Part shown: positions 1 to 37,436 of the stretch, one piece after another
Layout: each line of letters opens with the position of its first letter
Numbering within the stretch: the stretch's first letter is position 1
NCBI GenBank assembly: GCA_937923515.1
Contig: CALDUF010000026.1
Location: 1 to 64,000, forward strand
Reading direction: 5' to 3'
DNA from: an uncultured Flavobacteriaceae bacterium
Lineage (GTDB): Bacteria; Bacteroidota; Bacteroidia; Flavobacteriales; Flavobacteriaceae
DNA length: 64,000 nucleotides
Made by a program: the position numbers and the translations under genes
The notes under the pieces: model-generated
Seen by the model: only the letters and a program-made list of their open reading frames with translations
What the model was told of the DNA's origin: nothing
Databases searched by the model: none

Positions 1-1171
1 GAAACTAGCTATTGTTACCGCATATCCACCAAGTAAAGTTACGTTAAATGAGTACGCATATCATTTAGCAAAAAGTTTTAGACAACATGAAAAAGTAACT
101 GAATTAATTTTATTGACAGATGTTACTCCAGAAGGAAAAGATATTAATTTTACAGAAAATGGTTGTAAAATAACTGTAAAAGAGTGCTGGAAGTTTAACA
201 GCTATACTAATATTATAAACGTTACCAAAGCAATTAACAAATTGCAGCCAAATGCAATACTGTTTAACTTACAGTTTATGAAATTTGGTGATAAAAAAAT
301 TGCTGCGGCTTTAGGGCTAATGCTTCCTTTTGTATGTAAGCTTAAAAAGATACCAAATATTGTACTGTTGCATAATATTTTAGAAGAAGTAGATTTAGGT
401 AGTGCTGGTTTTACATCTAACAAGTTACTTACCAAATTGTATGGTTTTATTGGAACAACTTTAACTAAATTGATTTTAAAAGCGGATGTTGTAGCAGTAA
501 CGATGCAAAAGTACGTAGTTATTTTAGAAAATAAATATAAGGTGGATAATGTAAAATTGATTCCTCATGGTACGTTTGAAATTCCTGAAGAACCTAATTA
601 CGTTACGCCATCTAACCCTATGCAAATAATGACTTTTGGCAAGTTTGGCACTTACAAAAAGGTTGAAGCAATGATTGAAGCTGTTGAAAAAGTGCGACAA
701 TCCACCCATTTAAATTTAGAGGTTGTTATTGCAGGTACAGATAACCCCAATGTACCTGGATATTTAGCACAAGTAAAGGACGCTTATAAACATGTGCCTC
801 AAATTCGTTTTACTGGCTATGTGGAAGAAGCAGAAGTACCCGTTTTATTTAACGAAAGCACAGTAGTTGTGTTTCCTTATACGTCTACTACAGGTAGCTC
901 TGGCGTATTGCACCAAGCAGGTAGTTATGGTAAGGCGGTAATAATGCCAGATTTAGGCGATTTAGCTTTATTAGTTAAAGACGAAGGTTATCAAGGTGAG
1001 TTTTTTGATCCAAAATCTGTAGATAGTTTAGCTAAAGCAATAGAAAGTATTGTTACAGACAATGCATATAAAGTAAAATTAGGACAAATTAATTATAAAG
1101 CAGCAACGGCACACCCCATGTCTGATATTGTTGAAATGTATCTTAATACCTTTAAAACCGTTGGAGCTTAG
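1..1171 (+). CDS. GT4-type glycosyltransferase, copy A (start codon cut by window edge)
   Basis: A cytoplasmic sugar transferase of the GT4 (GT-B fold) type, probably acting in assembly of an exported polysaccharide. The frame is open to base 1. Comparison with the paralogue at 3027-4244 shows that base 1 is the G of the ATG, so only two bases are missing. The nucleotide-sugar half contains HGTFE, then MTFGKFGTYKKVE, IAGTDNPN and a GSSGVLHQAGSYGKAV loop where GT4 enzymes bind the donor. The first Glu of the usual E-x7-E pair is not evident. The protein is very similar to copy B along its whole length. The STAS gene follows after 140 bp. Donor and acceptor are unknown. Confidence 0.85.
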   Translation, partial: KLAIVTAYPPSKVTLNEYAYHLAKSFRQHEKVTELILLTDVTPEGKDINFTENGCKITVKECWKFNSYTNIINVTKAINKLQPNAILFNLQFMKFGDKKIAAALGLMLPFVCKLKKIPNIVLLHNILEEVDLGSAGFTSNKLLTKLYGFIGTTLTKLILKADVVAVTMQKYVVILENKYKVDNVKLIPHGTFEIPEEPNYVTPSNPMQIMTFGKFGTYKKVEAMIEAVEKVRQSTHLNLEVVIAGTDNPNVPGYLAQVKDAYKHVPQIRFTGYVEEAEVPVLFNESTVVVFPYTSTTGSSGVLHQAGSYGKAVIMPDLGDLALLVKDEGYQGEFFDPKSVDSLAKAIESIVTDNAYKVKLGQINYKAATAHPMSDIVEMYLNTFKTVGA

Positions 1172-3026: not shown

Positions 3027-4244
3027 ATGAAATTAGCCATAGTCACAGCATATCCACCTAGCAAGGTAACATTAAATGAGTATGCTTATCATTTAGTAAA
3101 ACACTTTAGACAAAACGATGACATTACAGAATTGGTTTTGTTAACCGATAAAACTGAAGGTGATAAAAACATTAATTTCACAGAAAGTGGATGTAAAATC
3201 ACAGTAAAAGAATGCTGGACATTTAATAGCTATTTAAACCTAGTACATGTAACGAAAGCTATCAGTAAAGTAAAACCAGATGCGGTATTATTCAATTTAC
3301 AATTTATGAAGTTTGGCGATAAAAAGATTGCCGCAGCACTAGGCTTAATGTTACCATTGGTATGTAAATTAAAAAAGATACCAAACATAGTTTTACTTCA
3401 TAATATACTAGAAGAAGTAGATTTAGGAAGTGCTGGGTTTACAAGTAATAAACTGATGCAAAAACTATATGGATATATTGGTAGTAGTTTAACGCGATTG
3501 ATTTTACAAGCTGATACTGTTGCCGTAACCATGCAAAAATATGTGGATATTTTAGCTAAAAAGTACGATGCTACAAATGTAAAATTAATACCCCATGGTA
3601 CGTTTGAAATTTTAGAAGAACCCAATTACGAAACACCTGTAGCACCTTTTAAAATAATGACTTTCGGGAAATTTGGAACCTATAAAAAAGTAGAAGGGAT
3701 GATTGAAGCTGTGGAAATGCTAAGAGACGTATCTGATTTAAATATGGAAATAGTAATTGCAGGAACCGATAACCCAAATACTCCTGGATATTTAGAAAGT
3801 GTGCAACGTAAATATAGCCATGTTACAGGCATAACATTTACAGGGTATGTTGCAGAAAATGATGTGCCAAAACTATTTAAGGACAGTGCTGTTGTGGTAT
3901 TTCCATACACATCAACCACAGGAAGCTCTGGAGTGTTACACCAAGCAGGAAGTTACGGTAAAGCAGTAGTGATGCCAGATTTGGGCGATTTAGCGTTGCT
4001 GGTTCAAGATGAAGGTTATAGAGGTGAATTTTTTGATGCTGAAAGCCCTAGTAGTTTAGCTATCGCTTTACAGAAAATTTTAGAAGATAATGCGTACCGT
4101 GTGGTATTGGAAAAAGCAAATTATAAAGCAGCAACTGCGTATCCAATGTCTAGAATTGCAGAGATGTACATCAATAGCTTTCAAACGATAATTGATAAAA
4201 AATCTTCAGTTAAAATGATGCAATCTCAAGAGGTTATACTTTAG
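3027..4244 (+). CDS. GT4-type glycosyltransferase, copy B
   Basis: A 405-residue GT-B glycosyltransferase, the intact paralogue of copy A at the window start. The N-terminus MKLAIVTAYPPSKVTLNEYA is the first beta-alpha unit of the acceptor half. HGTFE, MTFGKFGTYKKVE, IAGTDNPN and the GSSGVLHQAGSYGKAV donor loop are shared with copy A. Copy B has an extra C-terminal tail of about 15 residues. It has its own promoter module at 2905-2991. Its 3' end overlaps the convergent GH5-like gene by 11 bp. Retention of two close copies suggests either two similar transfer steps or a recent duplication. Confidence 0.87.
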   Translation: MKLAIVTAYPPSKVTLNEYAYHLVKHFRQNDDITELVLLTDKTEGDKNINFTESGCKITVKECWTFNSYLNLVHVTKAISKVKPDAVLFNLQFMKFGDKKIAAALGLMLPLVCKLKKIPNIVLLHNILEEVDLGSAGFTSNKLMQKLYGYIGSSLTRLILQADTVAVTMQKYVDILAKKYDATNVKLIPHGTFEILEEPNYETPVAPFKIMTFGKFGTYKKVEGMIEAVEMLRDVSDLNMEIVIAGTDNPNTPGYLESVQRKYSHVTGITFTGYVAENDVPKLFKDSAVVVFPYTSTTGSSGVLHQAGSYGKAVVMPDLGDLALLVQDEGYRGEFFDAESPSSLAIALQKILEDNAYRVVLEKANYKAATAYPMSRIAEMYINSFQTIIDKKSSVKMMQSQEVIL

Positions 4245-5748
4245 AAATATACTTAAAAGCAGGCTTAGTCTCTCCGTTTTGGTTAATAAAACCAAAATGC
4301 TCTTGAGTCTGTTTTCTCCAAGGAAGTCGTCCAACGACTTCCTTTGGTATTTTAGTAAAGTCGTAAAGTGTCCAAGACATGTACGGAATGTTATACAATT
4401 TAAACAGTGTTTGTGCCTGCTTGTAATACGCTGCTTGATCGTCTTCAGAATTTCCAAACGGATGCCACAACCCTCTGTTTGATGACATTCCAAACTCGGT
4501 AATGGCAATAGTAGTATCTGGTAATTCTGCTTTAAGTGTTTTGTAAGTTGTATCTAAATCGCCTAAATCTTCGTAGTAATGAAAGCTTACAAAATCCAGC
4601 GTATCCTGCAACAATGTAGCACTTGCTGCGTTAGACCATCCAATAGTTACAGGGTGTACTTTATCGACCGATTTTACAGTGGCTATCATTGCTGTTAACC
4701 AAGCTGTTACCAAGGTTTTTCCACGAGATTCAAAATCTAAATTAGGTTCGTTTTTAATATCCCAAGCCACTAAGGCATTATGATGTTGTAATGCTGAAAC
4801 AATACTTAGTGCATGATGCTGATTAAGCGACCAATTAATCACACTATAATCGCCATAAAAATCAAATAGTGTTACCATAACTTTTAGTTGATGTGCTTCT
4901 GCTAAATCTAGTACAATTTTAAGCTTTTCTAATTTTTTAGGATTAATGTTAGCGTTTCCAAAATCGGCATAAGGCACAAAAATTCTAATGGTATTTAAGC
5001 CTGCGTTTTTTATAATATTAAAATCTTTAGTGATACTACTAGTGTCAAAATTTTCGCCATACATATCCCACGGTGTATCTTGCGGATAATAATTAATGCC
5101 TTTAATATCTAATACATGCTGTGATGCCTTTATATTCTGGTAGTTATAAGGTTTAGTGTGTTGTTTTATAATATGCCTAATGCGCCAAAACCCATCTTCT
5201 AAAAGCATGATAATTTTGTAGCTAGATTGTTCTGTAGTTTCTAAAACTAAAGTGTTATTGTGGTACACACGTTTATATGCTACAACATCACTGTCTGTAA
5301 GTACTGCTAGTTGGCCATCTTCACTAAAAAAGTCTAAATTTAAATTGTGTTCAAGCGTAGTGCCGTCAACATAAATACTGTTTGTTTTATTGTTCGAAAT
5401 AATATCAAAAATCGATTGTCGCGCATTTTCAGTGTAATAATCGTCAATACCTTTGGTGGTATTGGTTTTATAGGCTACGTGTTTTACATACCACGCATCT
5501 AAATAATCGGTTTCAATAGCGGTTAGCGTTTGTAAATCTATAGTGCGCCCTTCGTTGCGTAAAGGTGCCCACTCAATTTTAGGAAGATATTGTTCTATTT
5601 TTTTTATTTCAGTATGAAGCATATTACTTCTATCTGCACCTGTGTTGAGGTATGAAAATACACTGCTAATACCCAAAATTAGTACTGCAATAATGGCGAT
5701 GTAAGATAGTACTAAAGCGCTTCGTAAAATATTTATATTAATACCCAT
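4234..5748 (-). CDS. Membrane-anchored GH5-like glycoside hydrolase with NTF2-like domain
   Basis: 504 residues. One N-terminal membrane helix (about 10-32) anchors it facing the periplasm. Residues about 75-200 look like an NTF2-like fold (a WRIRHI-type final strand). The C-terminal half (about 215-500) is a TIM barrel of the GH5/clan GH-A type: DIKNEP with acid/base E334, HYYED at about 390-394, and ITEFG with nucleophile E418. It is probably an endo-acting trimming or editing enzyme for the polysaccharide, comparable in role to the hydrolases found with cellulose synthesis operons. It is the last gene of a three-gene operon; its ATG shares one base with the stop of the gene before (TAATG). 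Confidence 0.8.
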   Translation of the reverse strand: MGININILRSALVLSYIAIIAVLILGISSVFSYLNTGADRSNMLHTEIKKIEQYLPKIEWAPLRNEGRTIDLQTLTAIETDYLDAWYVKHVAYKTNTTKGIDDYYTENARQSIFDIISNNKTNSIYVDGTTLEHNLNLDFFSEDGQLAVLTDSDVVAYKRVYHNNTLVLETTEQSSYKIIMLLEDGFWRIRHIIKQHTKPYNYQNIKASQHVLDIKGINYYPQDTPWDMYGENFDTSSITKDFNIIKNAGLNTIRIFVPYADFGNANINPKKLEKLKIVLDLAEAHQLKVMVTLFDFYGDYSVINWSLNQHHALSIVSALQHHNALVAWDIKNEPNLDFESRGKTLVTAWLTAMIATVKSVDKVHPVTIGWSNAASATLLQDTLDFVSFHYYEDLGDLDTTYKTLKAELPDTTIAITEFGMSSNRGLWHPFGNSEDDQAAYYKQAQTLFKLYNIPYMSWTLYDFTKIPKEVVGRLPWRKQTQEHFGFINQNGETKPAFKYISKV

Positions 5749-6953
5749 TATAGCGTGATGTTTTTAACAGATTTACTAATGCCCGCAGCAGTTACTGTTA
5801 TAGTATAATTACCCTTTGGAAATTGGTTGGGTTTTAATGTAAAGTGCACATACCCTTCAGCACTTGTTTTTTGTAGTATTTCTCTAATTTTAGTAGTGTT
5901 ATTATAAATTTCAAGTGTTACTTGTAATCCATCAGGAATCATTTGTTGCATAAAACTTTTTAAAGGGCCTACTGTGATGTCACTATACTTATTAGCAAAT
6001 ACAATATCAAAGTCTGAAATTACTGCGCTGTAATCTATAGCAATGTTGTTGCTACTAGCCATACCTTCAATAAATGCTTGGACTGACCAACTATCAGCAT
6101 GGTCTGGATGGATTATTCTTGCCGTAGCAACTCCATTTAAAGTTGTTCCTGATGTTTTTAAAATAGAGGTGTTTGCTGTGGTGATAAAAAATGCTACGTA
6201 AGTGCCATCGCTTACTATATTTTGAAATTCGTCTGTGATTACTGAAGTTTCAAAAGTGGTAATTTGATTGCCATCTGCATACTTATGATACTGTTTATAA
6301 TTGATAGTGAAATTAGTAGGTGTAGATGGCATGACGTCTATACTAAACTCTTTAGAGTTGAAGCCTAAACACGATGTGCTTAATGCGATGCGACCTGTTT
6401 TTTTTGGTGAAAATATGTTTTTGTAACTAATGCTATTTTTTATGGTGACTGTATCTACCTGTTGCTTATTTAGAAATTGGTGCTTTATAGCTAGTTTGGT
6501 GTTTTCAGCTAACGGATTATCATAAGCATCAGTTGGGATAGTAACAAGCATACTAAAATCTTTACCGCCAGCAACAATACTTGGCGGCCCCAAATAGCTT
6601 TGAATACTGCTAACCTTTTGTTGTGGCATAATGTTGAATTCACCCTGTAATTGTTTAGAGGTTGCTAACAAACGCCAATGCACAACTCCAGATTTGTCAG
6701 CTATTATTTTAGGAATTGTGTACCTTAATACGGTTTTGGTTTTTGTTGGTGTAACTACTGTAGATCCAAAGCTGTTACTAACATAAAGCAAAGGTGCTTT
6801 ATTAGTGGTTGTTGTAAATTCTATAATTATTGTGCTACCTGCAACATATTGGGTAGTTGTAGTTATAAGAGTGAAATTATCTGCAGGGAGACTTGGCGCT
6901 ATCGTGTGTAGCATTACTATAAAACTAATAATATGTATATTTAATAAATTCAT
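5748..6953 (-). CDS. Secreted protein with Ig-like beta-sandwich domains
   Basis: 401 residues with an N-terminal signal segment. The rest is beta-rich, with repeated patterns such as IPTDAYDNPL and VITDEFQNIVSDGTYVAF. These resemble the invasin/big-type Ig-like folds in which a 'D..gNp' turn and 'dGt.v.f' strand recur. No catalytic motif is visible. Being between the large membrane protein and the hydrolase, with one-base TAATG overlaps on both sides, it is probably a periplasmic structural or carbohydrate-contacting partner of them. The specific function is unknown. Confidence 0.65.
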   Translation of the reverse strand: MNLLNIHIISFIVMLHTIAPSLPADNFTLITTTTQYVAGSTIIIEFTTTTNKAPLLYVSNSFGSTVVTPTKTKTVLRYTIPKIIADKSGVVHWRLLATSKQLQGEFNIMPQQKVSSIQSYLGPPSIVAGGKDFSMLVTIPTDAYDNPLAENTKLAIKHQFLNKQQVDTVTIKNSISYKNIFSPKKTGRIALSTSCLGFNSKEFSIDVMPSTPTNFTINYKQYHKYADGNQITTFETSVITDEFQNIVSDGTYVAFFITTANTSILKTSGTTLNGVATARIIHPDHADSWSVQAFIEGMASSNNIAIDYSAVISDFDIVFANKYSDITVGPLKSFMQQMIPDGLQVTLEIYNNTTKIREILQKTSAEGYVHFTLKPNQFPKGNYTITVTAAGISKSVKNITL

Positions 6954-9900
6954 TAATTAGGGTTGCCTAAATAAGCATTGGTTTCAATTTTAATAAAACT
7001 GTAATACGGATGTTCTATAGCTTGTAATTGCGATGCCGTTTGGTTTTTAATTCTGTTGGGTAATATTTTATTAGCAATTGCTTTGTTTGGTAATCCGTTT
7101 ACGTAGCAGTTTTTCATATCATCATTTATAATTAAAGCTTTTTGTGTATCAAATGTATAAGTAAATTGCTGCTTGCGTTCTTGCCTAATACCTTCTTCTA
7201 TAAATGTATGTTCTACCCATAATAGGGTTTTGTTTGCATCATAATAACTAATAAGTAATTGCGGTATGGTAATTTCTTTAATACCGCCGTTAAATAATGT
7301 GCCAGAAATAGCATTTTTCGATAGGTTTAAATCACTTAAAACAGTTTGTTTATACAAATCAGACCCCGATACATTGCCTGCAACCTGCAAATTAAAATTG
7401 GTGGGTTGTTCTTCAAACTCAACAGGCGTAAATTCATCTGGATTAAAAGTTTTAGGAATAGAATCTTGAGTTTTAGACCAAGCAATACCTTCAAAATTAA
7501 TTCTAAATGCGCTTACTTCCTTAGGCATTAATTTGTGTTTTACTTGATGTTTTGCATTGTATGTTGCAAGTGCTTTATTAGCATCGTTATACAACGTGCC
7601 TTTTAACACCACGTCTGCAGGAACATTGTCAATATTTTGAATTTCTCCAATTAAGGCGTAGCTTTTGTTGTGTTTTACAAGTTTAGCTTGTAGAATTTCT
7701 AAAACGGGCTGTTTTAAAATATCTTCATGGTGGGTTTGTTCTGTAGTTATACGACGTCTACCTTGGTTAAAATAGTCGGTTGTATTATTGCTATAAAATT
7801 GATCTGGTGGTAAATCTAAATCCACAGCATCAGGTTCAATAAACCATTTACCATCTATTTTAACTAATGCTTTGTAAAATGTTTTCTCTATGTTTTCTAG
7901 AGATGTAATCCATTTTGTGGTTACAACAGCAGAGGCCAATGTATCAGTTTGTGATGTTATTTGAGTATCAATAGCGTCTAATTTCGCATAAGAACTTAAA
8001 AGGCCATCAGTAACTGAAATTTCTAACATGTACTGCGCAATAGTTAAATCGCTTTTAGGATTTATAAGGCTATGTGCTTTTTCAAATCGTTTAAAATCTA
8101 GGGCGTCGTAGTAGGCAAGCAGTGCATTTTCTGGCGTATGGTGGCTGTTGTTTTTTAAATAGAAGTGGTACATGCCAAATCCAATAATAATTGCTAAAAT
8201 TACAGACCATATGTGCGTTAGTTTTAAAACACCGCTAGAAAACTTTTTGTAGTTTATTTTGAAGTTTAAATACTCTGGTATATGCTTTGTTTTTGTTTTT
8301 AGTGCGCGTTTAAATAGCATGTGAATATTTAAAAAAAACGCAATAAGTACTGTTAAAAATGGCATAACACCCCAAAGTATTTTTTGCCATCTACTTACAT
8401 CATCTTTTGGTAGAATAGACGATAATGGAGGTACATTTAATTTTTCCCAAACCTGTATACCATTTTCTAATTGTCGTAGGCGTTGCCATCCGCAGAAATA
8501 CAAAATAGGATCATAAAATTTATCGTTTGAAAAAATATACTTAAAGTTATACTTTTCTGGAGTTGTTAAAAACTGTTGTAAGGAGCCAATACCTTCAACA
8601 CCTTTAAATTTTGAATTTTCTAAGCGTTCAATAGGGCGTGTAGTAAGTTCTGGTAAACGTCTTGCTGAATGGTAATTACCATCAACACTCATTGCCTTAG
8701 TTTGTGCAGATAACCATGCCATTTGGTCTCCAAACCCCAAGGTCATATAGCGCCATTGGTCATGTTGGTCTTGGTTTAAAAAATTCACAATGGGTAACAT
8801 CTTTATTTTTTGGGGTTGTGCAGGTCTAAAATACCCAAGACTCATGGTAAAGATGGTCATAAAAATGAATAAACCAGCAAGTATGCCTCCAATAATTCGA
8901 TGATAGATAGCACCAAATTTTTGTTGAATAAGAGTTTTTAAATCACCTTCAGAAAAACGGTATGCAAATTCTCCAAAAAGCGGAATAGACATTATTGAAG
9001 CCCAAAGTGTAAACCTATCTAAGGTTAAAATATTAAAAGCAGTTTCGCCTAAAAACAATCTAGGAATTGGCGTAGTACCACCTGTTCCTAAAACGGTGAG
9101 TATGCTTATAGAAAACCCAAAAAAGAGGTAACGCTTGCTGTAGTAGCGGTAAAAAATATACGGCAGTAAAATTAGTAAAATACCCCACGGAATGAGAAAA
9201 AACACCAACCCTGATGATGTAATTTCTAAAAAATTATCGCGAGACCCATGCGGTATGGGTACCTGGGTAATAGGGTTGTTTTTAGAATTAATCCAGTAAG
9301 GTAAAATACAACCAACAATAATAACTAAGGATAATAACCCAAAACTTATGATGCGTTTAAACAGTTTAAAAAAACTATTTAAAAACACCTTAAAAGTAAC
9401 GGCTTTCATGTTGCCAACTTTATCTTTTGAGGTGTCCATGATTACCATGCCAATTAATGGAAATATAAAAAATATCATTCCAAAAATAGGTGTAACATGA
9501 TGCGAGGTAACCGTAACAGCAATTAAAGATAAACACGTACATAAATACCGTAGTTTTCCCGTTTTAAGCCACAAGTAAATTTCTGGTAATGCATGCATTA
9601 ATATAGAAATACCAATAATACTAGGTAACTGCCCAAACACATGCAAGGTTTCAACAAAAGATGATGATAACACTGCTAGAATTGCGGCATAACCCGCTAC
9701 TGTTCTATTGCCTGTAATAAGCAACGAAAACCGATATGCTCCCGTAATAAACAGCATAATACTTAGCAATGCCACTGTAAATAAGCCAAATTTTAAACCG
9801 CCTATATAAGACAGTGCTGCTATAGATTGATGTACTAGTGGTGGGTAACTCATTACCGTAAAGCCTGTGTACCATTTGTAGTTCCAAGGCTCAAACCAGC

Positions 9901-10042
9901 TACCAGCATAATGTTCTGCAAAAAATAAATGTATTAACGCATCATAGGTACTTTCTAAAGTAAAGAAAATAGATGTGCCATGAAACGCAATGCCAATTAG
10001 CAATGCAATAATTAAATGTTTATTTGTCGCTTTAGGACTCAA
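6953..10042 (-). CDS. Large GT-C-like membrane protein (PTPS-related family) with periplasmic C-terminal domains
   Basis: 1029 residues. Residues 1 to about 640 contain many membrane helices. The first large loop (STYDALIHLFFAEHYAGSWF, then YKWYTGFTVMSYPPL) is typical of the '6-pyruvoyl-tetrahydropterin synthase-related' membrane family, which looks like lipid-linked GT-C glycosyltransferases. After a helix at about 620 comes an NTF2-like domain (about 650-760), then beta-rich segments. The start is a TTG at 10042: a TAA stop codon lies immediately upstream in frame and no ATG follows nearby, so TTG is the only sensible start. It is the first gene of the operon and lies divergent from the REC-GT2 gene. 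It is a candidate polymerising or transferring enzyme at the inner membrane. Confidence 0.7.
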   Translation of the reverse strand: MSPKATNKHLIIALLIGIAFHGTSIFFTLESTYDALIHLFFAEHYAGSWFEPWNYKWYTGFTVMSYPPLVHQSIAALSYIGGLKFGLFTVALLSIMLFITGAYRFSLLITGNRTVAGYAAILAVLSSSFVETLHVFGQLPSIIGISILMHALPEIYLWLKTGKLRYLCTCLSLIAVTVTSHHVTPIFGMIFFIFPLIGMVIMDTSKDKVGNMKAVTFKVFLNSFFKLFKRIISFGLLSLVIIVGCILPYWINSKNNPITQVPIPHGSRDNFLEITSSGLVFFLIPWGILLILLPYIFYRYYSKRYLFFGFSISILTVLGTGGTTPIPRLFLGETAFNILTLDRFTLWASIMSIPLFGEFAYRFSEGDLKTLIQQKFGAIYHRIIGGILAGLFIFMTIFTMSLGYFRPAQPQKIKMLPIVNFLNQDQHDQWRYMTLGFGDQMAWLSAQTKAMSVDGNYHSARRLPELTTRPIERLENSKFKGVEGIGSLQQFLTTPEKYNFKYIFSNDKFYDPILYFCGWQRLRQLENGIQVWEKLNVPPLSSILPKDDVSRWQKILWGVMPFLTVLIAFFLNIHMLFKRALKTKTKHIPEYLNFKINYKKFSSGVLKLTHIWSVILAIIIGFGMYHFYLKNNSHHTPENALLAYYDALDFKRFEKAHSLINPKSDLTIAQYMLEISVTDGLLSSYAKLDAIDTQITSQTDTLASAVVTTKWITSLENIEKTFYKALVKIDGKWFIEPDAVDLDLPPDQFYSNNTTDYFNQGRRRITTEQTHHEDILKQPVLEILQAKLVKHNKSYALIGEIQNIDNVPADVVLKGTLYNDANKALATYNAKHQVKHKLMPKEVSAFRINFEGIAWSKTQDSIPKTFNPDEFTPVEFEEQPTNFNLQVAGNVSGSDLYKQTVLSDLNLSKNAISGTLFNGGIKEITIPQLLISYYDANKTLLWVEHTFIEEGIRQERKQQFTYTFDTQKALIINDDMKNCYVNGLPNKAIANKILPNRIKNQTASQLQAIEHPYYSFIKIETNAYLGNPN

Positions 10043-10218: not shown

Positions 10219-11409
10219 ATGAAAATTTTAGCCATAGATGACCAACAATTAGTATTGCTGCCACTACAAAAACGATTAGTTGCATTAGGTTATGACGTTA
10301 TTGTAGAGACAGATGCTAATGACGGTATTTCAAAATACAACAGTTTTACCCCAGATTTAGTTATCGTAGACATTAATATGCCAATTGTTTCGGGTTTAGA
10401 TATTGTAAAATATATTAGAAATTCTAAAAACGCAAATACGCCTATTATGGTATTGTCTGGCAATACGCAAGACGATATAATTACTACTGGTTTTGATTTA
10501 GGTATTAATGATTATATGAAAAAGCCATTAAGCCTAAATGAAATTTGTGCCAGAGTAAAGCGTTTGATTGGCGCTCCAGAAACAAAAGCAATTAGTATAT
10601 CAAAAAACATAATGATACAGCAACGCTGTGTTGGGGCGGTTATTCCTTGTTATAATGAAGAAGATAGATTGTTAAGTAACGAATTCCTTCAATTTATTGA
10701 TAAAAATACAGGTTACCATTTATGTTTTGTTAATGATGGTAGTAAAGATAGAACTCTAGAAGTTTTAAAAACATTACAAAAGGGGCGTGAAGATTTTATA
10801 ACGGTTTATGATTGTGAAAAAAATGGAGGTAAAGCCGAGGCGGTACGTTTAGGTATGTTGCATTTGGCTAAAAAACAAGACTTAGATTATATAGGTTTTT
10901 TAGATGCTGATTTATCAACAGATTTAGCAGATTTTGACGACTTAGTAAACACCATAGAAACCTCTAATTTTAAAATAGTAAGTGGTTCTCGTATGGCAAG
11001 AATGGGGGCAAATATTACCAAAGAGTCTGCCCGAAAAATAATTAGTTTAACCATTAACTTTATTATAAGAACCATTTTAAAAATGGATTTTAAAGACACC
11101 CAATGTGGAGCTAAAATTTTTCGTAAAGAGGTTATAAATATCGCTTTTAAAGAAAAATTTGTAACACAGTGGATTTTTGATGTTGAAATATTTAAAAGAA
11201 TGGCACAACATTATGGTTTAAAGCAAGCAAAAGCTATGCTTTGTGAGCAACCTTTAAAGCGATGGATACATGCTGATGGCTCTAAATTGTCTATGAAAGA
11301 TTCGGTAAAAATAGTTGGTCAATTAGCTCAAATTGCTTGGGTGTATAAACAGAAAAAAACAAATACGGAAAAAGCGGTTGCAGTAAATGAAATAGAGGTA
11401 GTTATTTAA
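10219..11409 (+). CDS. Response-regulator receiver fused to a GT2 (DPM1-like) glycosyltransferase
   Basis: 396 residues. Residues 1-118 form a complete CheY-like receiver: acidic pair D7/D8, phospho-acceptor D51 in VIVDINMP, S80 and K102 in MKKP. Residues about 135-380 are a GT2 transferase: VIPCYNEE, VNDGSKDRT, ENGGKAEAV-like loop (CEKNGGKAEAV) and the metal-binding L-D-A-D-L (D229/D231), then QCGAKIF and QWIFDVEIF as in dolichol-phosphate mannosyltransferase-like enzymes. No C-terminal membrane helices are visible. All key residues of both domains are intact, so phosphorylation may directly gate sugar transfer. This is inferred; no cognate histidine kinase lies in the window. Confidence 0.88.
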   Translation: MKILAIDDQQLVLLPLQKRLVALGYDVIVETDANDGISKYNSFTPDLVIVDINMPIVSGLDIVKYIRNSKNANTPIMVLSGNTQDDIITTGFDLGINDYMKKPLSLNEICARVKRLIGAPETKAISISKNIMIQQRCVGAVIPCYNEEDRLLSNEFLQFIDKNTGYHLCFVNDGSKDRTLEVLKTLQKGREDFITVYDCEKNGGKAEAVRLGMLHLAKKQDLDYIGFLDADLSTDLADFDDLVNTIETSNFKIVSGSRMARMGANITKESARKIISLTINFIIRTILKMDFKDTQCGAKIFRKEVINIAFKEKFVTQWIFDVEIFKRMAQHYGLKQAKAMLCEQPLKRWIHADGSKLSMKDSVKIVGQLAQIAWVYKQKKTNTEKAVAVNEIEVVI

Positions 11410-11414
11410 TTTAA

Positions 11415-11918
11415 TTGAGAATGAGAATTGGAGTTATTATAGTGTTTCATAACAGTGAGAAGCATATTGATGTAGATTTTTTTGTAAACTATTTAGATAA
11501 AGCTAAAAACTTAGAATTCTGCTTAGTGAACAATGCAAGTAAAGATAATACCTATAAAGTACTAAAGGAGATAAAGATATATGCCACAACTTCGGTTGCT
11601 TTGGTAGATATAAAAAAATTTAAATCTGATATTTCTGCCGTAAGATCGGGTGCTAGATTTATGTTTAATCAATTCGATTTAGACCATATAGGTTTTATAA
11701 GTACTAATTTAATAAATATTAAAAAATACAGCATCAATAGTTTAATATATGCCATGAGTAAGCATCAAGATGCTATTTTAAAGTATGATAAAAATGAAAT
11801 AGAAAAAAAGCATATAAGGCAAACCTTATTTCAAAAAGTGTTTTCTATAATAGAGTATTTAGAAATAATAAAATATGGTGCAAATCCTAATAACTTAATA
11901 CCTGAACTAAAACGATAA
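11415..11918 (+). CDS. Short degenerate GT2-like protein
   Basis: 167 residues starting at the ATG 11421 or 11415 (MRMRIG). It aligns by eye to the GT2 half of the preceding gene: VIIVFHNSE against VIPCYNEE, VNNASKDNT against VNDGSKDRT, DLDHIGFISTN against DLDYIGFLDAD. The catalytic DAD has become STN and the C-terminal acceptor half is missing. It is therefore probably catalytically dead, either a partner or regulator of the fusion enzyme or a decaying duplicate. It lies five bases after the stop of the fusion gene and must be cotranscribed with it. Confidence 0.6.
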   Translation: MRMRIGVIIVFHNSEKHIDVDFFVNYLDKAKNLEFCLVNNASKDNTYKVLKEIKIYATTSVALVDIKKFKSDISAVRSGARFMFNQFDLDHIGFISTNLINIKKYSINSLIYAMSKHQDAILKYDKNEIEKKHIRQTLFQKVFSIIEYLEIIKYGANPNNLIPELKR

Positions 11919-32547: not shown

Positions 32548-33687
32548 TTATAAAGTCTTAAAAAATGCCTTTATAAAACGCCATGAAAAAAGTGAGAACA
32601 TAATTTTTAGTTCTTCAAAAAAAGTGGATTCTTCATCTAAAAATCGAAACATCGTATCGCTACTATTTTTAGCATAAAACTGCTCGAATAGCCATTCGCC
32701 TTTATCATTTTCATCTTGTAATACTTTTAAAAACACCTTGTCATAAAACTTATATTTCTTTTGAAATAACCCAGTTGATGGTATTTTACGCCGTTTGATA
32801 TTAGTAATAATTTTTGCAACCTTTTTCTCGGTATGTTTAAACGAATAGCCTGTTGAGGGTTTTACCCAACCGCCGCCAGTACCAATTTTAGTAAGGTTTT
32901 GAGAATTAAACGCATCAAAAGCAAAGGTAGTCATTGGTATATTACCTTGTTCAGATTCTAAAATTTGGTAATCGCCGATATTTAAATACGCCTTAATATA
33001 TTTTTTAATAAACGCATCATATACCGATGTTTCAACAATAGTTTCAGTAAAGTATGTAAACTCAACTAAAGCTTCATGTTTTGAAAATGGTAATACGTAT
33101 GTAAATGTAGTTTGCGCACCATCTTTTAAGCGGTAATCCATCATGGTGACAGTGTTATCGTTAAAAGCTTCAGTTTTAGTTTTTATCACAATACCTTTAA
33201 AATGCTGATTGATATTTATGCTTTTAGTATCAGAATAAAATTCGGAAGGAATTCTACTATCAAAAATATGAGTACAGGTGTAATTATTTTTAGAAGTGGT
33301 GACGCTAGGTTTATCTGTATTAATAGTTTCAACGCTGTCTATAATAAAATAGAAATTGCTGTGTTTTTTTAATTCTGATTTGGCATAATTATAAAAGTCA
33401 ATTGCTTTTACAGATTTGTAAGTATAAGGTGAAAGCTTAAGCTCTATTGTTTTTTTTGTAGTGATTACATTTGCTTTTTCCCAAGAAGCATAGGGCAAAT
33501 TTTTCCACAGTGAAGGATTTTTTTCCCAAAAGCTCCAAGTTTTATCGTTTGTGTTTTTTGAAGAAGAATCAATTAAGGCAATGTGTTTGTCTTTAAAAAA
33601 CGCATCGGCTGCCATTTTAAGTGCCAGCTGTAATCCTGCTAAACCATTTCCAATAATGATATAGTCGAAATGGAAACGCTCTGCCAT
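32548..33687 (-). CDS. crtY: Lycopene beta-cyclase
   Basis: 379 residues. The N-terminal FAD/NAD-binding motif DYIIIGNGLAGLQLALKM and TWSFWEK are typical of CrtY/CrtL-type cyclases. It closes both ends of lycopene to give beta-carotene. It is the last gene of the carotenoid operon, six bp after crtZ. Confidence 0.9.
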   Translation of the reverse strand: MAERFHFDYIIIGNGLAGLQLALKMAADAFFKDKHIALIDSSSKNTNDKTWSFWEKNPSLWKNLPYASWEKANVITTKKTIELKLSPYTYKSVKAIDFYNYAKSELKKHSNFYFIIDSVETINTDKPSVTTSKNNYTCTHIFDSRIPSEFYSDTKSININQHFKGIVIKTKTEAFNDNTVTMMDYRLKDGAQTTFTYVLPFSKHEALVEFTYFTETIVETSVYDAFIKKYIKAYLNIGDYQILESEQGNIPMTTFAFDAFNSQNLTKIGTGGGWVKPSTGYSFKHTEKKVAKIITNIKRRKIPSTGLFQKKYKFYDKVFLKVLQDENDKGEWLFEQFYAKNSSDTMFRFLDEESTFFEELKIMFSLFSWRFIKAFFKTL

Positions 33688-33693
33688 TCTGTA

Positions 33694-34146
33694 TTATTTC
33701 TTTTTGAAGTATTTAAAAGGTACTACTAGCATACCAAAGCATTCGCCGTCGCCTTTTCCTAAATGTTTATGGTGAATTTTATGCGCTCTTCGCACACCAT
33801 GAGCATACCAATTGTTGGCGTTTCTAAACAGTTTAAATCGCTGATGAATAAAAATATCGTGCACAAAAAAGTAAGATACACCGTAAGCGAAAATGCCTAA
33901 ACCTATAGGTAAACCTTGCCAAAAACTGGTGTTTTTCCATAGTAGAAAGAAACCAATACTTACTACAGCGTAAAAAATAAAAAACGCATCATTACGCTCA
34001 AACCAACTATCATGATCTTTATGGTGGTGGTCTTTATGTAAGCTCCATAAAAACCCGTGCATCACATATTTATGGGTAAACCATGCCATAAATTCCATAA
34101 AAAAGTAGGTGCCTAAAAATACAAGTATCCAGTAAAACGTTTGCAT
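33694..34146 (-). CDS. crtZ: Beta-carotene hydroxylase
   Basis: 150 residues, an integral-membrane di-iron enzyme. Histidine clusters HKYVMHG, HKDHHHKDHD, HDIFIHQR and HGVRRAHKIHHK supply the iron ligands. It hydroxylates beta-carotene to zeaxanthin. No ketolase (CrtW) lies in the cluster, so zeaxanthin is the predicted end product. Nine bp after crtB. Confidence 0.94.
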   Translation of the reverse strand: MQTFYWILVFLGTYFFMEFMAWFTHKYVMHGFLWSLHKDHHHKDHDSWFERNDAFFIFYAVVSIGFFLLWKNTSFWQGLPIGLGIFAYGVSYFFVHDIFIHQRFKLFRNANNWYAHGVRRAHKIHHKHLGKGDGECFGMLVVPFKYFKKK

Positions 34147-34155
34147 CTTAAATAA

Positions 34156-34995
34156 TTACATTAAATTTAATTGATATTTTACATAACTGCGCATAAGTAG
34201 CTCAATCTTTTTGGGATTTGATACTCTAATACGCGTGTCTTTAATTTGTAGTGCTGGTGTTTTTTTGAGTTTCTTTAAAAGCTGGCTATAATAGCGATAC
34301 GCCATAAAAACACCAAATTTAGCTTCCATTGGTAATTTTTGAATACCAATTAAGCCTTTTTCAAAATCGTTTTCTATATCGTCAATAATTTGTTGCTTAG
34401 AATGTTCGTCTAAATTATCCAAATCTATATTAGGAAAGTAGCTTCTGTTTAACTCATTAAAATCTGCTTTTAAATCTCTCAAAAAGTTTACCTTTTGAAA
34501 TGCAGAACCTAAAGACATTGCGCTGTTTTTAAGTTCGTTATACTTTTCTTCGTCGCCTTTTACAAACACTTTTAAACACATAAGCCCAACCACATCTGCG
34601 GAGCCATAAATATAAGCTTTGTATTCCTCATCTGATAAATAATCATTTTTAGATAAATCTAATCGCATACTTTTCATAAACGCATCCACCATACTTTTAT
34701 CAATATTATATTCATGATAAGTATGTTGAAAAGCATTTAAAATAGGGTTTAAACTTATTTTGTCTTGTAATGCGTTTTCCAAATCTTGTGTAAAACGTTC
34801 AAATAATTCTTCTTTATTGAAGTCGTGAAACGAATCAACAATTTCATCTGCAAATCTTACAAATCCATAGATATTATAAATGTGCATTCGTATAGAGTTA
34901 GATAACATTTTTGTGGCTAACGAAAACGATGTGCTGTAACTTTTTGTTACTACCTTACTACAACTGTAGGAAACGGAATCGAATAATGCTTTCAT
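34156..34995 (-). CDS. crtB: Phytoene synthase
   Basis: 279 residues of the squalene/phytoene synthase family. The two aspartate-rich motifs are FVRFADEIVDSFH and VNFLRDLKADFNE. It condenses two geranylgeranyl diphosphates to phytoene. Two bp after crtI. No crtE (GGPP synthase) gene is present in the window. Confidence 0.94.
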   Translation of the reverse strand: MKALFDSVSYSCSKVVTKSYSTSFSLATKMLSNSIRMHIYNIYGFVRFADEIVDSFHDFNKEELFERFTQDLENALQDKISLNPILNAFQHTYHEYNIDKSMVDAFMKSMRLDLSKNDYLSDEEYKAYIYGSADVVGLMCLKVFVKGDEEKYNELKNSAMSLGSAFQKVNFLRDLKADFNELNRSYFPNIDLDNLDEHSKQQIIDDIENDFEKGLIGIQKLPMEAKFGVFMAYRYYSQLLKKLKKTPALQIKDTRIRVSNPKKIELLMRSYVKYQLNLM

Positions 34996-34997
34996 TT

Positions 34998-36461
34998 TTA
35001 CTTATTATGATATTTGTTGATGAGTTGCGCTACTAGTTTTCCTGATATTAACGATGGTGGCACTCCAGGTCCAGGAACGGTAAGTTGTCCAGTAAAATAT
35101 AAATTATTCACTTTTTTACTTTTTAACTTAGGTCTCAAAAAGGCAGTTTGGGAAAGGGTGTTAGCCATTCCATACGCATTACCCTTATAAGAATTATACT
35201 CTTTTATAAAATCCTTTACGCAGAAGGATTCTTTAAATATAATATTATTTATAACATCTTGCCCAGTTAATTTCTCAAAACGCGATAAAATAATATCAAA
35301 ATACTGCGCCCTGAGTGCTTCGGTATCTTCAATTCCTGGTGCTATTGGAATTAGGAAAAAACCTGTTTCACAGTCTTTTGGTGCCATTGAAGCATCTGTA
35401 ACCGAAGGGAAATTAGCGTAAAATAAAGGGTCTTTTGGCCATTTAGGATTATCGTAAATTTCTTCGGCGTGCGTTTCAAAATTAGTATCAAAAAACAAAT
35501 TGTGATGTTCTACGTTTTTTATTTTTTTATCGAACCCTACATAAAACAATAGGGAAGAGGGTGCAAATGTTTTTTTAGACCAGTAAGATTCTGAGTATTG
35601 CCTGTAATTTTTATCTAATAAAGTTTCTGAATGGTGATAATCTGCTCCGCTTAAAACAATATCAAATGATTTTTTATCACCATTTATCATTATGGACGTA
35701 GCATTTTTGCCTTCAACCACTATTTTTTCAACAGGACTGTTGGTATGTATTACAACGCCCAAACGTTCTGCTAAAGTTTTCATAGCTTTTATCACTTCGT
35801 ACATGCCACCTTTGGGGTGCCAAGTGCCTAAGCCAAAATCAGCATAATTCATAAAACTATAAAACGATGGTGTATTGCTAGGTTTTGCGCCAAGAAATAG
35901 TACCGGAAATTCTAAAGTTGATATTAGCTTTGGGTTTTTAAATTTTTTTCGAACATCGCCACTTATGGTTTTAAAAAATTGGTCTACTCTAGTAGCAGTC
36001 TCAGGAGTAACTAGCTCAAAAGGCGAAATACCAGGTTTTAGTACCACTTTATTTATAGCAATATCATAATTAGTGGCAGCCTTGTCTATAAATTGTCTTA
36101 AAGGTTTAGAGCTACCAGGTTCTATGCGCTCAAATTCGGCACAAATTTTATCCATGGTATCACCAATTGTGATGACTTCGTCTTTAAAAAAAATCTTGTA
36201 AGCTGGACTTAGTTTATCGAGTTCGTAAAAGTCTGAAGTTGAAGTACCAAAATCATTAAAGAATTTCTCAAAAATATCGGGCATCCAATACCAACTTGGA
36301 CCAATATCAAAAGTAAAACCTTCTTTTTTTAATTGTCTGGCGCGACCACCAACGGTATCGTTTTTTTCAAAGATTGAAACACTAAAACCCTGCTGTTTTA
36401 AATAGCAACTGGCAGACAGTGCTGAGAATCCTGAACCTATTATGGCTATTGTTTTTTTCAT
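34998..36461 (-). CDS. crtI: Phytoene desaturase
   Basis: 487 residues. N-terminal FAD motif IAIIGSGFSALSASCYLKQQ and FDIGPSWYWMP; C-terminal signature LYFTGQLTVPGPGVPPSLIS of bacterial-type CrtI. It desaturates phytoene to lycopene. It is the first crt structural gene. A 9-bp perfect inverted repeat (36461-36492) ends at its start codon, so control by the upstream MerR regulator is likely. Confidence 0.95.
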   Translation of the reverse strand: MKKTIAIIGSGFSALSASCYLKQQGFSVSIFEKNDTVGGRARQLKKEGFTFDIGPSWYWMPDIFEKFFNDFGTSTSDFYELDKLSPAYKIFFKDEVITIGDTMDKICAEFERIEPGSSKPLRQFIDKAATNYDIAINKVVLKPGISPFELVTPETATRVDQFFKTISGDVRKKFKNPKLISTLEFPVLFLGAKPSNTPSFYSFMNYADFGLGTWHPKGGMYEVIKAMKTLAERLGVVIHTNSPVEKIVVEGKNATSIMINGDKKSFDIVLSGADYHHSETLLDKNYRQYSESYWSKKTFAPSSLLFYVGFDKKIKNVEHHNLFFDTNFETHAEEIYDNPKWPKDPLFYANFPSVTDASMAPKDCETGFFLIPIAPGIEDTEALRAQYFDIILSRFEKLTGQDVINNIIFKESFCVKDFIKEYNSYKGNAYGMANTLSQTAFLRPKLKSKKVNNLYFTGQLTVPGPGVPPSLISGKLVAQLINKYHNK

Positions 36462-36492
36462 TGTTTAACAAATATAAATAAAAGTTAAACAA
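36461..36492 (-). promoter_or_regulatory. Candidate CarH-type operator/promoter of crtI
   Basis: Perfect inverted repeat: TTGTTTAAC (36461-36469) and GTTAAACAA (36484-36492), spacer 14. A perfect -7 box on the minus strand, TATATTTG (36476-36469), lies within the spacer. The repeat recurs with the same spacing at the start of the MerR gene (37400-37431). If this -7 box is used, the mRNA is almost leaderless. Confidence 0.65.
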
Positions 36493-36504
36493 AAAAGAAA
36501 CTAA

Positions 36505-37407
36505 TTATAAATCTTTAACTAAATTTTCAATAGAGGTGTATGTTTTCACTCTTTTAGGTAGTTGAACAGTTTCCTCTAAGCCTATTAATTTAGGACCTAG
36601 TAAGAGTAAATCTGTCTTATCATTATTCAATAACAAATCATCAAAGTCATTTATGTAGTTTGGTATTTCGCTTAGTTCTGGATTAACAGTGAAGTACGAA
36701 ATAAACGTAATTTCATCAAAGAATTCTAGAACACTTACCAAGCTAGACATAGGCACGCTTTCGCCTAAGAAAATAGTGTGGTAGCCTTTGCTTCTTAATT
36801 GATAATTTATGAATAACAAACCTATATCGTGTATCTCGTTATCGGGAAGAAAAAGTATAAATGTTCTTGAAACAGGTTTAGGTTCTAATATTTGTAAACG
36901 CTCTATATTAAGCAGTATTTTTTGCTTCATATGAGACGTTAAAAAATGCTCGTGTGCGGGTGTAATTGTATCAGTTTGCCACAGCAAACCTATTTCGTTT
37001 AAAAGCGGTAAAAATACATCATAGAAAATATCGTTAAATGATTTGTTTTCTATTAGATTTTTATAGGTATTGTAAAATAATACTTGGTCGAAATTAAGCA
37101 TTGATAGCTTAAACGCGTTAATGGCGTGGTCCTCAACTTTAGCTCTCGATGCTATTTCTCTAACTTTAATAGGGATTTCACCTTCGGCTAAATCAGCTAT
37201 CTTTGATATTTTATAGCCATTATTGTTTAAAAAAGATATATTTAGCAACTTTTGGAGACTTGCTAAGCTGTAACTTCTAATGTTTGTATCGCTTCTATTA
37301 GGACTAAGTAAATTGTAGCGCTTCTCCCATATCCTAATGGTATGAGCCTTGATACCAGTAAGATTTTCTAAGTCCTTTATGCTAAAATTAACTTGTATAT
37401 TGTTCAT
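36505..37407 (-). CDS. CarH-like MerR regulator with B12-binding domain (predicted photoreceptor)
   Basis: 300 residues from ATG 37407; a TTG at 37431 is less likely because it overlaps the promoter. MerR winged helix: FSIKDLENLTGIKAHTIRIW then EKRYNLL. The B12 part has W143-x9-E153-H154 (WQTDTITPAHEH), the motif that shields adenosylcobalamin in light-sensing CarH, and E191-I-H193-D-I-G196, supplying the lower axial histidine. CarH tetramers repress carotenoid genes in the dark and fall apart in light. Adjacency to crtIBZY and the shared operator support that role; direct photosensing is inferred. Confidence 0.85.
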   Translation of the reverse strand: MNNIQVNFSIKDLENLTGIKAHTIRIWEKRYNLLSPNRSDTNIRSYSLASLQKLLNISFLNNNGYKISKIADLAEGEIPIKVREIASRAKVEDHAINAFKLSMLNFDQVLFYNTYKNLIENKSFNDIFYDVFLPLLNEIGLLWQTDTITPAHEHFLTSHMKQKILLNIERLQILEPKPVSRTFILFLPDNEIHDIGLLFINYQLRSKGYHTIFLGESVPMSSLVSVLEFFDEITFISYFTVNPELSEIPNYINDFDDLLLNNDKTDLLLLGPKLIGLEETVQLPKRVKTYTSIENLVKDL

Positions 37408-37436
37408 CAAAAATAGATTTTCGTTAAACAAAATTA
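37400..37436 (-). promoter_or_regulatory. Candidate operator and -7 box of the MerR/CarH-like gene
   Basis: TTGTTCATC (37400-37408) and GTTAAACAA (37423-37431) with spacer 14; the left half matches the crtI half-site at 7 of 9 bases, the right half at 9 of 9. The minus-strand -7 box TAATTTTG (37436-37429) overlaps it. It covers the start codon (37407-37405), suggesting autorepression. Confidence 0.6.

Follow-up and report, generated by a model that had tools for sequence, protein, structure and literature searches.

BcsA, PelD, and Alg44 are polysaccharide synthases that are activated by c-di-GMP. In the H-NOX pathways that have been reviewed, the effect of nitric oxide on biofilm polysaccharide is relayed by c-di-GMP or by gene expression (PMC8738867). 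In Vibrio fischeri, H-NOX/HahK signals through the Hpt of SypF to the syp exopolysaccharide locus (PMC8738867); the outputs there are SypG, a transcription factor, and SypE, a serine kinase/phosphatase that acts on SypA (PMC8738867; PMC4517449). Fusions of a receiver to a glycosyltransferase are listed, in the part of the source drawn on here, among the response regulators with enzymatic outputs, the case in point being that of the Methanobacteriaceae (MTH_548) (PMC5847659). Here we describe a fusion of a receiver to a GT2 glycosyltransferase (REC-GT2) that sits inside a conserved exopolysaccharide cluster of Flavobacteriaceae.

REC-GT2 (copy B) is encoded at positions 10219 to 11409 on the forward strand of the window, by which we mean the whole 64,000-nucleotide stretch of DNA that was analyzed. 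The gene was delimited as a single unbroken ATG open reading frame of 396 amino acids, and its assignment draws on that frame, on Pfam, on alignments, and on a GT2 tree. Residues 3 to 114 (positions 10225 to 10560, forward strand) match the Pfam Response_reg family (PF00072; 1.8e-21, 77 bits against a cutoff of 30), and residues 141 to 306 (10639 to 11136, forward strand) match Glycos_transf_2 (PF00535; 6.1e-21, 75 bits against a cutoff of 23), while the BcsA-like family PF13641 scored 20.0 bits, under its cutoff of 27. A check by position found D7-D8, D51, S80, and K102 of the receiver and DGS 173 to 175 and DAD 229 to 231 of the GT2 domain, all of which were unchanged in 14 aligned orthologues and paralogues, including a second paralogue group; the key residues of both domains were likewise unchanged in an alignment of 40 REC-GT2 orthologues. 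The receiver residues of the window protein also include Y99, and the conserved C-terminal part of the GT2 (W318-FDVEIF, KRWIHADGSKLS) runs on to about residue 376. Pfam, the position check, and the alignments thus bear out the original prediction that a receiver and a complete GT2 lie in one chain with every residue it named intact. Median dN/dS values of about 0.10 for the receiver and about 0.07 for the GT2 point to purifying selection on both domains, tighter on the GT2. REC-GT2 has no predicted transmembrane segment (top 19-residue hydropathy, 1.43) and is predicted to be soluble. In an AF2 model (mean pLDDT, 60.6) the receiver forms a block with pLDDT values of 73 to 96, and receiver domains head the list of matches in a fold search; the model is poor past the receiver, so that the interface between the domains could not be read from it.

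A search for the same architecture in Bacteroidota found the fusion in dozens of Flavobacteriaceae genera. We confirmed 414 relatives in GTDB genomes by tblastn, and among the best 80 of these 414, 78 loci carried a full reading frame with both sets of motifs, their hosts including Algibacter, Winogradskyella, Lacinutrix, Olleya, Psychroserpens, Formosa, Tenacibaculum, Mesoflavibacter, and Hyunsoonleella. REC-GT2 was present in 38 of 151 Flavobacteriaceae genomes, nearly all of which were from different genera. In a sample of 297 genomes across the phylum, ten had a match, one of them outside the family, and REC-GT2 looks nearly confined to Flavobacteriaceae. Copies that are ~78 to 79% identical occur outside the family in L102 (a record named Portibacter lacus) and in G334, through either horizontal transfer or a mislabeled or contaminated record. 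In the GT2 tree, the fused proteins all fell on one side of a single branch (support, 100/99), for which one fusion event appears to be the simplest reading. The window's genome itself holds a second REC-GT2, 65% identical to the window copy, near the end of contig C21. The notion that REC-GT2 arose by chance or through misassembly and means nothing in evolutionary terms, which the original prediction had allowed for as a lone assembly error, is refuted by the 414 relatives, the 78 full fusions, the single clade, and the invariant residues, and we consider its probability to be virtually nil.

Next to REC-GT2 in the window, and divergent from it, lies the gene for a 1029-amino-acid membrane protein (6953 to 10042, reverse strand), followed on the same strand by genes for an Ig-like (invasin/Big_1-like) protein (5748 to 6953; sub-threshold Pfam matches) and a TIM-barrel glycoside-hydrolase-like protein (4234 to 5748; PF02836, 7.8e-07, over the cutoff). 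On the forward strand are a GT4 glycosyltransferase, GT4b (3027 to 4244; PF13692/PF00534), a polysaccharide flippase of the MOP type (1657 to 2907; PF13440, 6e-14), and a stand-alone STAS protein of 92 amino acids with an IDTSG site (1312 to 1590; PF01740). Among the best 80 of the 414 loci, the membrane protein was found in 79, the hydrolase-like and Ig-like proteins in 77 each, GT4 in 74, the flippase in 73, STAS in 62, a degenerate GT2 in 61, and a porin-like TPR protein of the outer membrane in 59; since these loci are at most 21 kb long, the counts at the end of this series are lower bounds. GT4, flippase, and TPR porin suggested a Pel-type cluster, but Pfam and NCBIfam scans found no Pel-specific family, and the resemblance to Pel is only general.

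The STAS protein that the original prediction placed in the locus is real (Pfam STAS, 5.8e-09, over the cutoff). Its proposed role as a second posttranslational input is plausible by analogy with SypA and from gene neighborhood only. No cognate serine kinase for it was found in the window's genome, which is 88% complete and in which the one PF13581 match over the cutoff belongs to a 609-amino-acid frame far from the locus.

A paralogue of GT4b, GT4a (113 to 1171, forward strand), has a frame that matches its relatives from window base 2 on, and the gene is therefore truncated by the start of the contig. Contig C21 and the start of the window do not overlap in sequence, and the two ends (L007:15261-15973 and window 1 to 1171) carry different GT4 copies that are 81% identical in DNA. 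We infer that the two contigs are adjacent only from synteny with G002, G007, and L054. Given the different GT4 copies at the two ends, a GT4 repeat is the probable site of the break in the assembly, with at least three GT4 copies here. Elsewhere in the window, at 32548 to 37431, an apparent carotenoid cluster was noted by eye (cyclase-, hydroxylase-, synthase-, and desaturase-like genes with a MerR-type regulator), and G012 and G022 have similar genes close to their REC-GT2 clusters.

The original prediction called for the histidine kinases linked to such fusions to be sought, and near the fusion we found an operon of the order CheY/H-NOX/HK/(NosP-like)/HK/Hpt/LytTR in 33 of 38 genera. In the window's genome it lies on contig C21, upstream of the second REC-GT2, and encodes CheY, H-NOX, a PAS kinase, a NosP-like FIST protein, a second kinase, Hpt, and LytTR. 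The H-NOX gene matches PF07700 (HNOB; 1.1e-39), and the gene after it has HisKA and HATPase_c domains; the FIST domains are clear, and we call the FIST protein NosP-like since the NosP model scored 57 bits against a cutoff of 450. A LytTR response regulator directly followed Hpt in nearly every relay operon examined and is likely to be a transcriptional output.

H-NOX was present in 36 of the 38 genera with REC-GT2 and in 25 of the other 113 among the 151 genomes (Fisher P = 5e-16, a value that overstates independence because the REC-GT2 genera share ancestry). The two genes were on the same contig, 9.9 to 27.4 kb apart (median, 18 kb), in 33 of the 38 genera, which, as linkage within one family, do not amount to 33 independent events; two of the remaining genera had no H-NOX match, and in three it was unlinked or on another contig. 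As a control we used aconitase, a neighbor in the window that is present in 150 of the 151 genomes; it was within 40 kb of REC-GT2 in only 5 of the 38, so general synteny accounts for only part of the H-NOX linkage. Gene order varies among genera; in G022 and G029, for example, the relay and the porin are immediate neighbors. In G106, REC-GT2 lies ~4 kb from the relay and the rest of the exopolysaccharide cluster is absent there. Between relay and cluster in G030 (L143:11138-17734) are a PAAR and Het-C protein and then several similar short lipoprotein-like genes, an array that looks like an effector with its immunity genes. A GGDEF domain was found in none of eight REC-GT2 genomes, including the window's own (88% complete; the other genomes closed or near complete), while 8 of 14 control genomes scored, and a diguanylate cyclase target is therefore excluded in those eight.

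Eight PDB sequences matched the GT2 part at an E value of ≤0.001, and the best six, with modest E values, were GtrB or ArnC, which are polyprenyl-phosphate transferases; the nearest solved relatives were GtrB (sll0501; E of about 2e-6) and ArnC (about 4e-6). GtrB and ArnC are membrane proteins, but hydropathy predicts no membrane anchor like theirs in REC-GT2; anchor-free enzymes of the DPM1 type are known. The 1029-amino-acid membrane protein, whose gene is usually divergently adjacent to that of REC-GT2, gave no match in a profile search of PDB sequences. AF2 modeled it poorly (mean pLDDT, 50); the best Foldseek matches to the model were GT-C oligosaccharyltransferases, and the C-mannosyltransferase DPY19 ranked lower. 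A relative of the protein weakly matched PTPS_related. It is probably of the GT-C type, a weak assignment made from a low-confidence model.

Enzymes of the GT-C class take lipid-linked donors, and it is donors of this kind that GtrB and ArnC produce. The GT-C-like protein was found in 45 of the 151 genomes, 37 with REC-GT2 and eight with an unfused GT2. REC-GT2 was within 15 kb of its gene in 36 of the 37, the exception being G177, where the two are on separate contigs, and the unfused GT2 adjoined it in all eight, so that the gene is adjacent to or within 15 kb of one or the other in 44 of the 45 genera. This constant pairing supports the reading of the GT2 as a synthase of a lipid-linked donor: to judge from sequence comparison, REC-GT2 is probably a polyprenyl-phosphate sugar synthase that feeds the GT-C protein.

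The eight genera just mentioned keep the cluster with an unfused, receiver-free GT2 in the same place, which implies that the receiver is an add-on and that a GT2 lacking one is enough for the cluster to work. In six of the eight, the relay is in the same neighborhood or genome region, and there the relay must also work without a REC-GT2 output. These genera are the strongest point for caution. The possibility that the unfused GT2 is the fusion minus its receiver was not supported, since in the GT2 tree its branch lies outside the clade of fused proteins.

Directly downstream of REC-GT2 in the window (11415 to 11918, forward strand), and in this position in about 60 of 78 loci, is a gene for a degenerate GT2-like protein of 167 amino acids (dGT2) that resembles the N-terminal half of the GT2 and has lost its catalytic residues: D173 is Asn in 61 of 61 sequences, and DAD is lost. 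With a median dN/dS of about 0.2, dGT2 is a conserved noncatalytic protein; conserved dGT2 genes occur in the window and in loci L050-L127. The GT2 tree places it in a clade of its own on long branches, a position that speaks neither for nor against its being a remnant of the unfused GT2. Genomes that lack REC-GT2 can also have short dGT2-like genes close to the H-NOX operon (L164:5114-5572 and L169:4254-4739). In Algibacter-type loci, a free receiver of 123 amino acids, closely related to that of REC-GT2, is encoded directly upstream of the fusion (at 10001-10372 in L050, L051, L052, L054, L055, L057, and L124).

The relay also stands beside other polysaccharide genes. In G068, G132, G111, and G125 it is followed by an exopolysaccharide operon of the Wzx/Wzy type that encodes a free receiver and, in addition, a fusion of a receiver-like domain to a PF02397 sugar transferase (L146:9272-10459, L166:11481-12668, L167:11079-12308, and L168:8367-9566, each preceded by the free-receiver gene). 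Six of the 151 genomes have this second fusion; H-NOX is present in every one of them and linked in four. The acidic pair, the acceptor Asp, and the Lys are all missing from the receiver-like domain, so that phosphorylation of the domain itself could not drive the protein; the one free receiver that was aligned (L146:8829-9215) is intact. In G135 (L155:4138-5274), a relative of REC-GT2 near the H-NOX relay has an intact receiver on a GT2 that has lost its catalytic motifs, and its neighbors are unrelated to the exopolysaccharide cluster.

The reading that we favor, and whose chances we take to be about even, is that REC-GT2 would be a response regulator with a GT2 enzyme output, belonging to the linked nitric-oxide phosphorelay, with phosphorylation setting its activity. 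H-NOX, with the NosP-like FIST protein where present, would signal to the histidine kinases and they to Hpt, which would pass phosphate to the receiver of REC-GT2; phosphorylation would then alter how active the GT2 is, its oligomeric state, or its contact with the membrane. The cytosolic GT2 would make a polyprenyl-phosphate-linked sugar at the inner membrane face, the GT-C-like protein would use it outside to build or decorate the exopolysaccharide, and the flippase, GT4, and TPR porin of the cluster would make and export the polymer. Nitric oxide would set GT2 activity directly in cells without diguanylate cyclases, and LytTR of the same operon would set transcription. The presence, in four other genera, of a second receiver-like fusion beside the relay counts in favor of this scheme, and the loss of the phosphorylation residues from that domain counts against it. 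In this scheme we infer the phosphotransfer to D51, the sign of the regulation, the polyprenyl-phosphate product, the GT-C partnership, and nitric oxide as the signal. The original prediction was of a phosphorelay output that is itself a sugar transferase, coupling signal reception to polysaccharide synthesis without transcription. Intact domains under purifying selection, an architecture conserved in dozens of genera, and a polysaccharide locus make an enzyme output of a phosphorelay the natural reading; "without transcription" fares less well, as the relay operon also encodes LytTR and eight genera run the cluster with a receiver-free GT2.

The main rival to direct enzyme control takes these last two points as its own. 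The relay might act on the cluster by transcription only, through LytTR, the receiver on the GT2 being the target of an unlinked kinase or a module for phosphorylation-driven dimerization or localization, so that nitric oxide has no direct action on the enzyme. The near-constant place of LytTR directly after Hpt favors this, as do the genera that keep the cluster and its GT2 without a receiver, and shared regulation could by itself hold relay and cluster together. Control by LytTR alone nevertheless leaves unexplained why an intact receiver is under purifying selection on the enzyme and why REC-GT2 of G106 lies beside the relay with the rest of the cluster missing, and we regard it as rather unlikely. 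The receiver might instead be mainly a phosphate sink or relay regulator that competes with LytTR and CheY for Hpt phosphate, with the GT2 sensing lipid carrier or nucleotide sugar and thereby reporting the state of the pathway. Catalytically dead GT2 folds are indeed retained, as dGT2 and, on an intact receiver near the relay without exopolysaccharide genes, as the G135 protein, and several Algibacter loci have closely related free receivers immediately ahead of REC-GT2. In the main family, however, the GT2 motifs are invariant and the GT2 is more constrained than the receiver, which indicates a working enzyme, and we consider this reading of the receiver improbable. We hold more tentatively, as falling somewhat short of an even chance, a wider form of direct enzyme control: that the nitric-oxide relay phosphorylates the glycosyltransferase directly, replacing c-di-GMP control where diguanylate cyclases are absent, and that, next to this relay, receiver-like domains became attached to sugar transferases in two polysaccharide systems that are unrelated to each other. 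Natural comparisons are at hand in the eight genera with the same cluster and a receiver-free GT2 and in the four with the relay beside a different exopolysaccharide operon that carries a receiver-like sugar transferase.

Compared with GtrB (sll0501) and ArnC, the closest solved relatives of its GT2 part, REC-GT2 adds a receiver before the GT2 and has no predicted transmembrane segment. With BcsA, PelD, and Alg44 it would share a posttranslational switch on the polysaccharide synthesis machinery and a TPR porin in the cluster; the switch there is binding of c-di-GMP, whereas that of REC-GT2 would be receiver phosphorylation. Like REC-GT2, the Methanobacteriaceae protein MTH_548 joins receivers (one or two there) to a glycosyltransferase and has a narrow lineage spread, in the part of the source drawn on here (PMC5847659). 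By the same part of that source, the fusion is archaeal and BcsA-like, with PF13641 as its output, whereas in REC-GT2 PF00535 passes and PF13641 is under its cutoff; neither an H-NOX relay nor an exopolysaccharide cluster is mentioned in that part (PMC5847659), whereas both accompany REC-GT2. A search of the open-licence literature turned up no description of this bacterial REC-GT2 fusion, nor of an H-NOX relay linked to it, the archaeal case being the only one found.

What is already known is thus the archaeal fusion of receiver and glycosyltransferase, as far as the portion of PMC5847659 drawn on here goes, and the control of an exopolysaccharide locus by nitric oxide through Hpt (PMC8738867). 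If our reading is right, there would be a third route from nitric oxide to polysaccharide, by way of a response regulator that doubles as a glycosyltransferase, and nitric oxide may control slime production by enzyme switching, not by c-di-GMP, in many marine Flavobacteriaceae. The H-NOX/NosP pathways of Proteobacteria similarly have H-NOX beside a histidine kinase, a FIST/NosP-like protein with a second kinase, and a biofilm-type target (PMC8738867), but they act on c-di-GMP, whereas eight REC-GT2 genomes are without a GGDEF gene. The syp system of V. fischeri is like the one described here in having H-NOX with an adjacent kinase, Hpt, and an exopolysaccharide locus with a single-domain STAS protein (PMC8738867; PMC4517449); the difference is that here one of the glycosyltransferases of the cluster carries a fused receiver, and LytTR is encoded in the relay operon.
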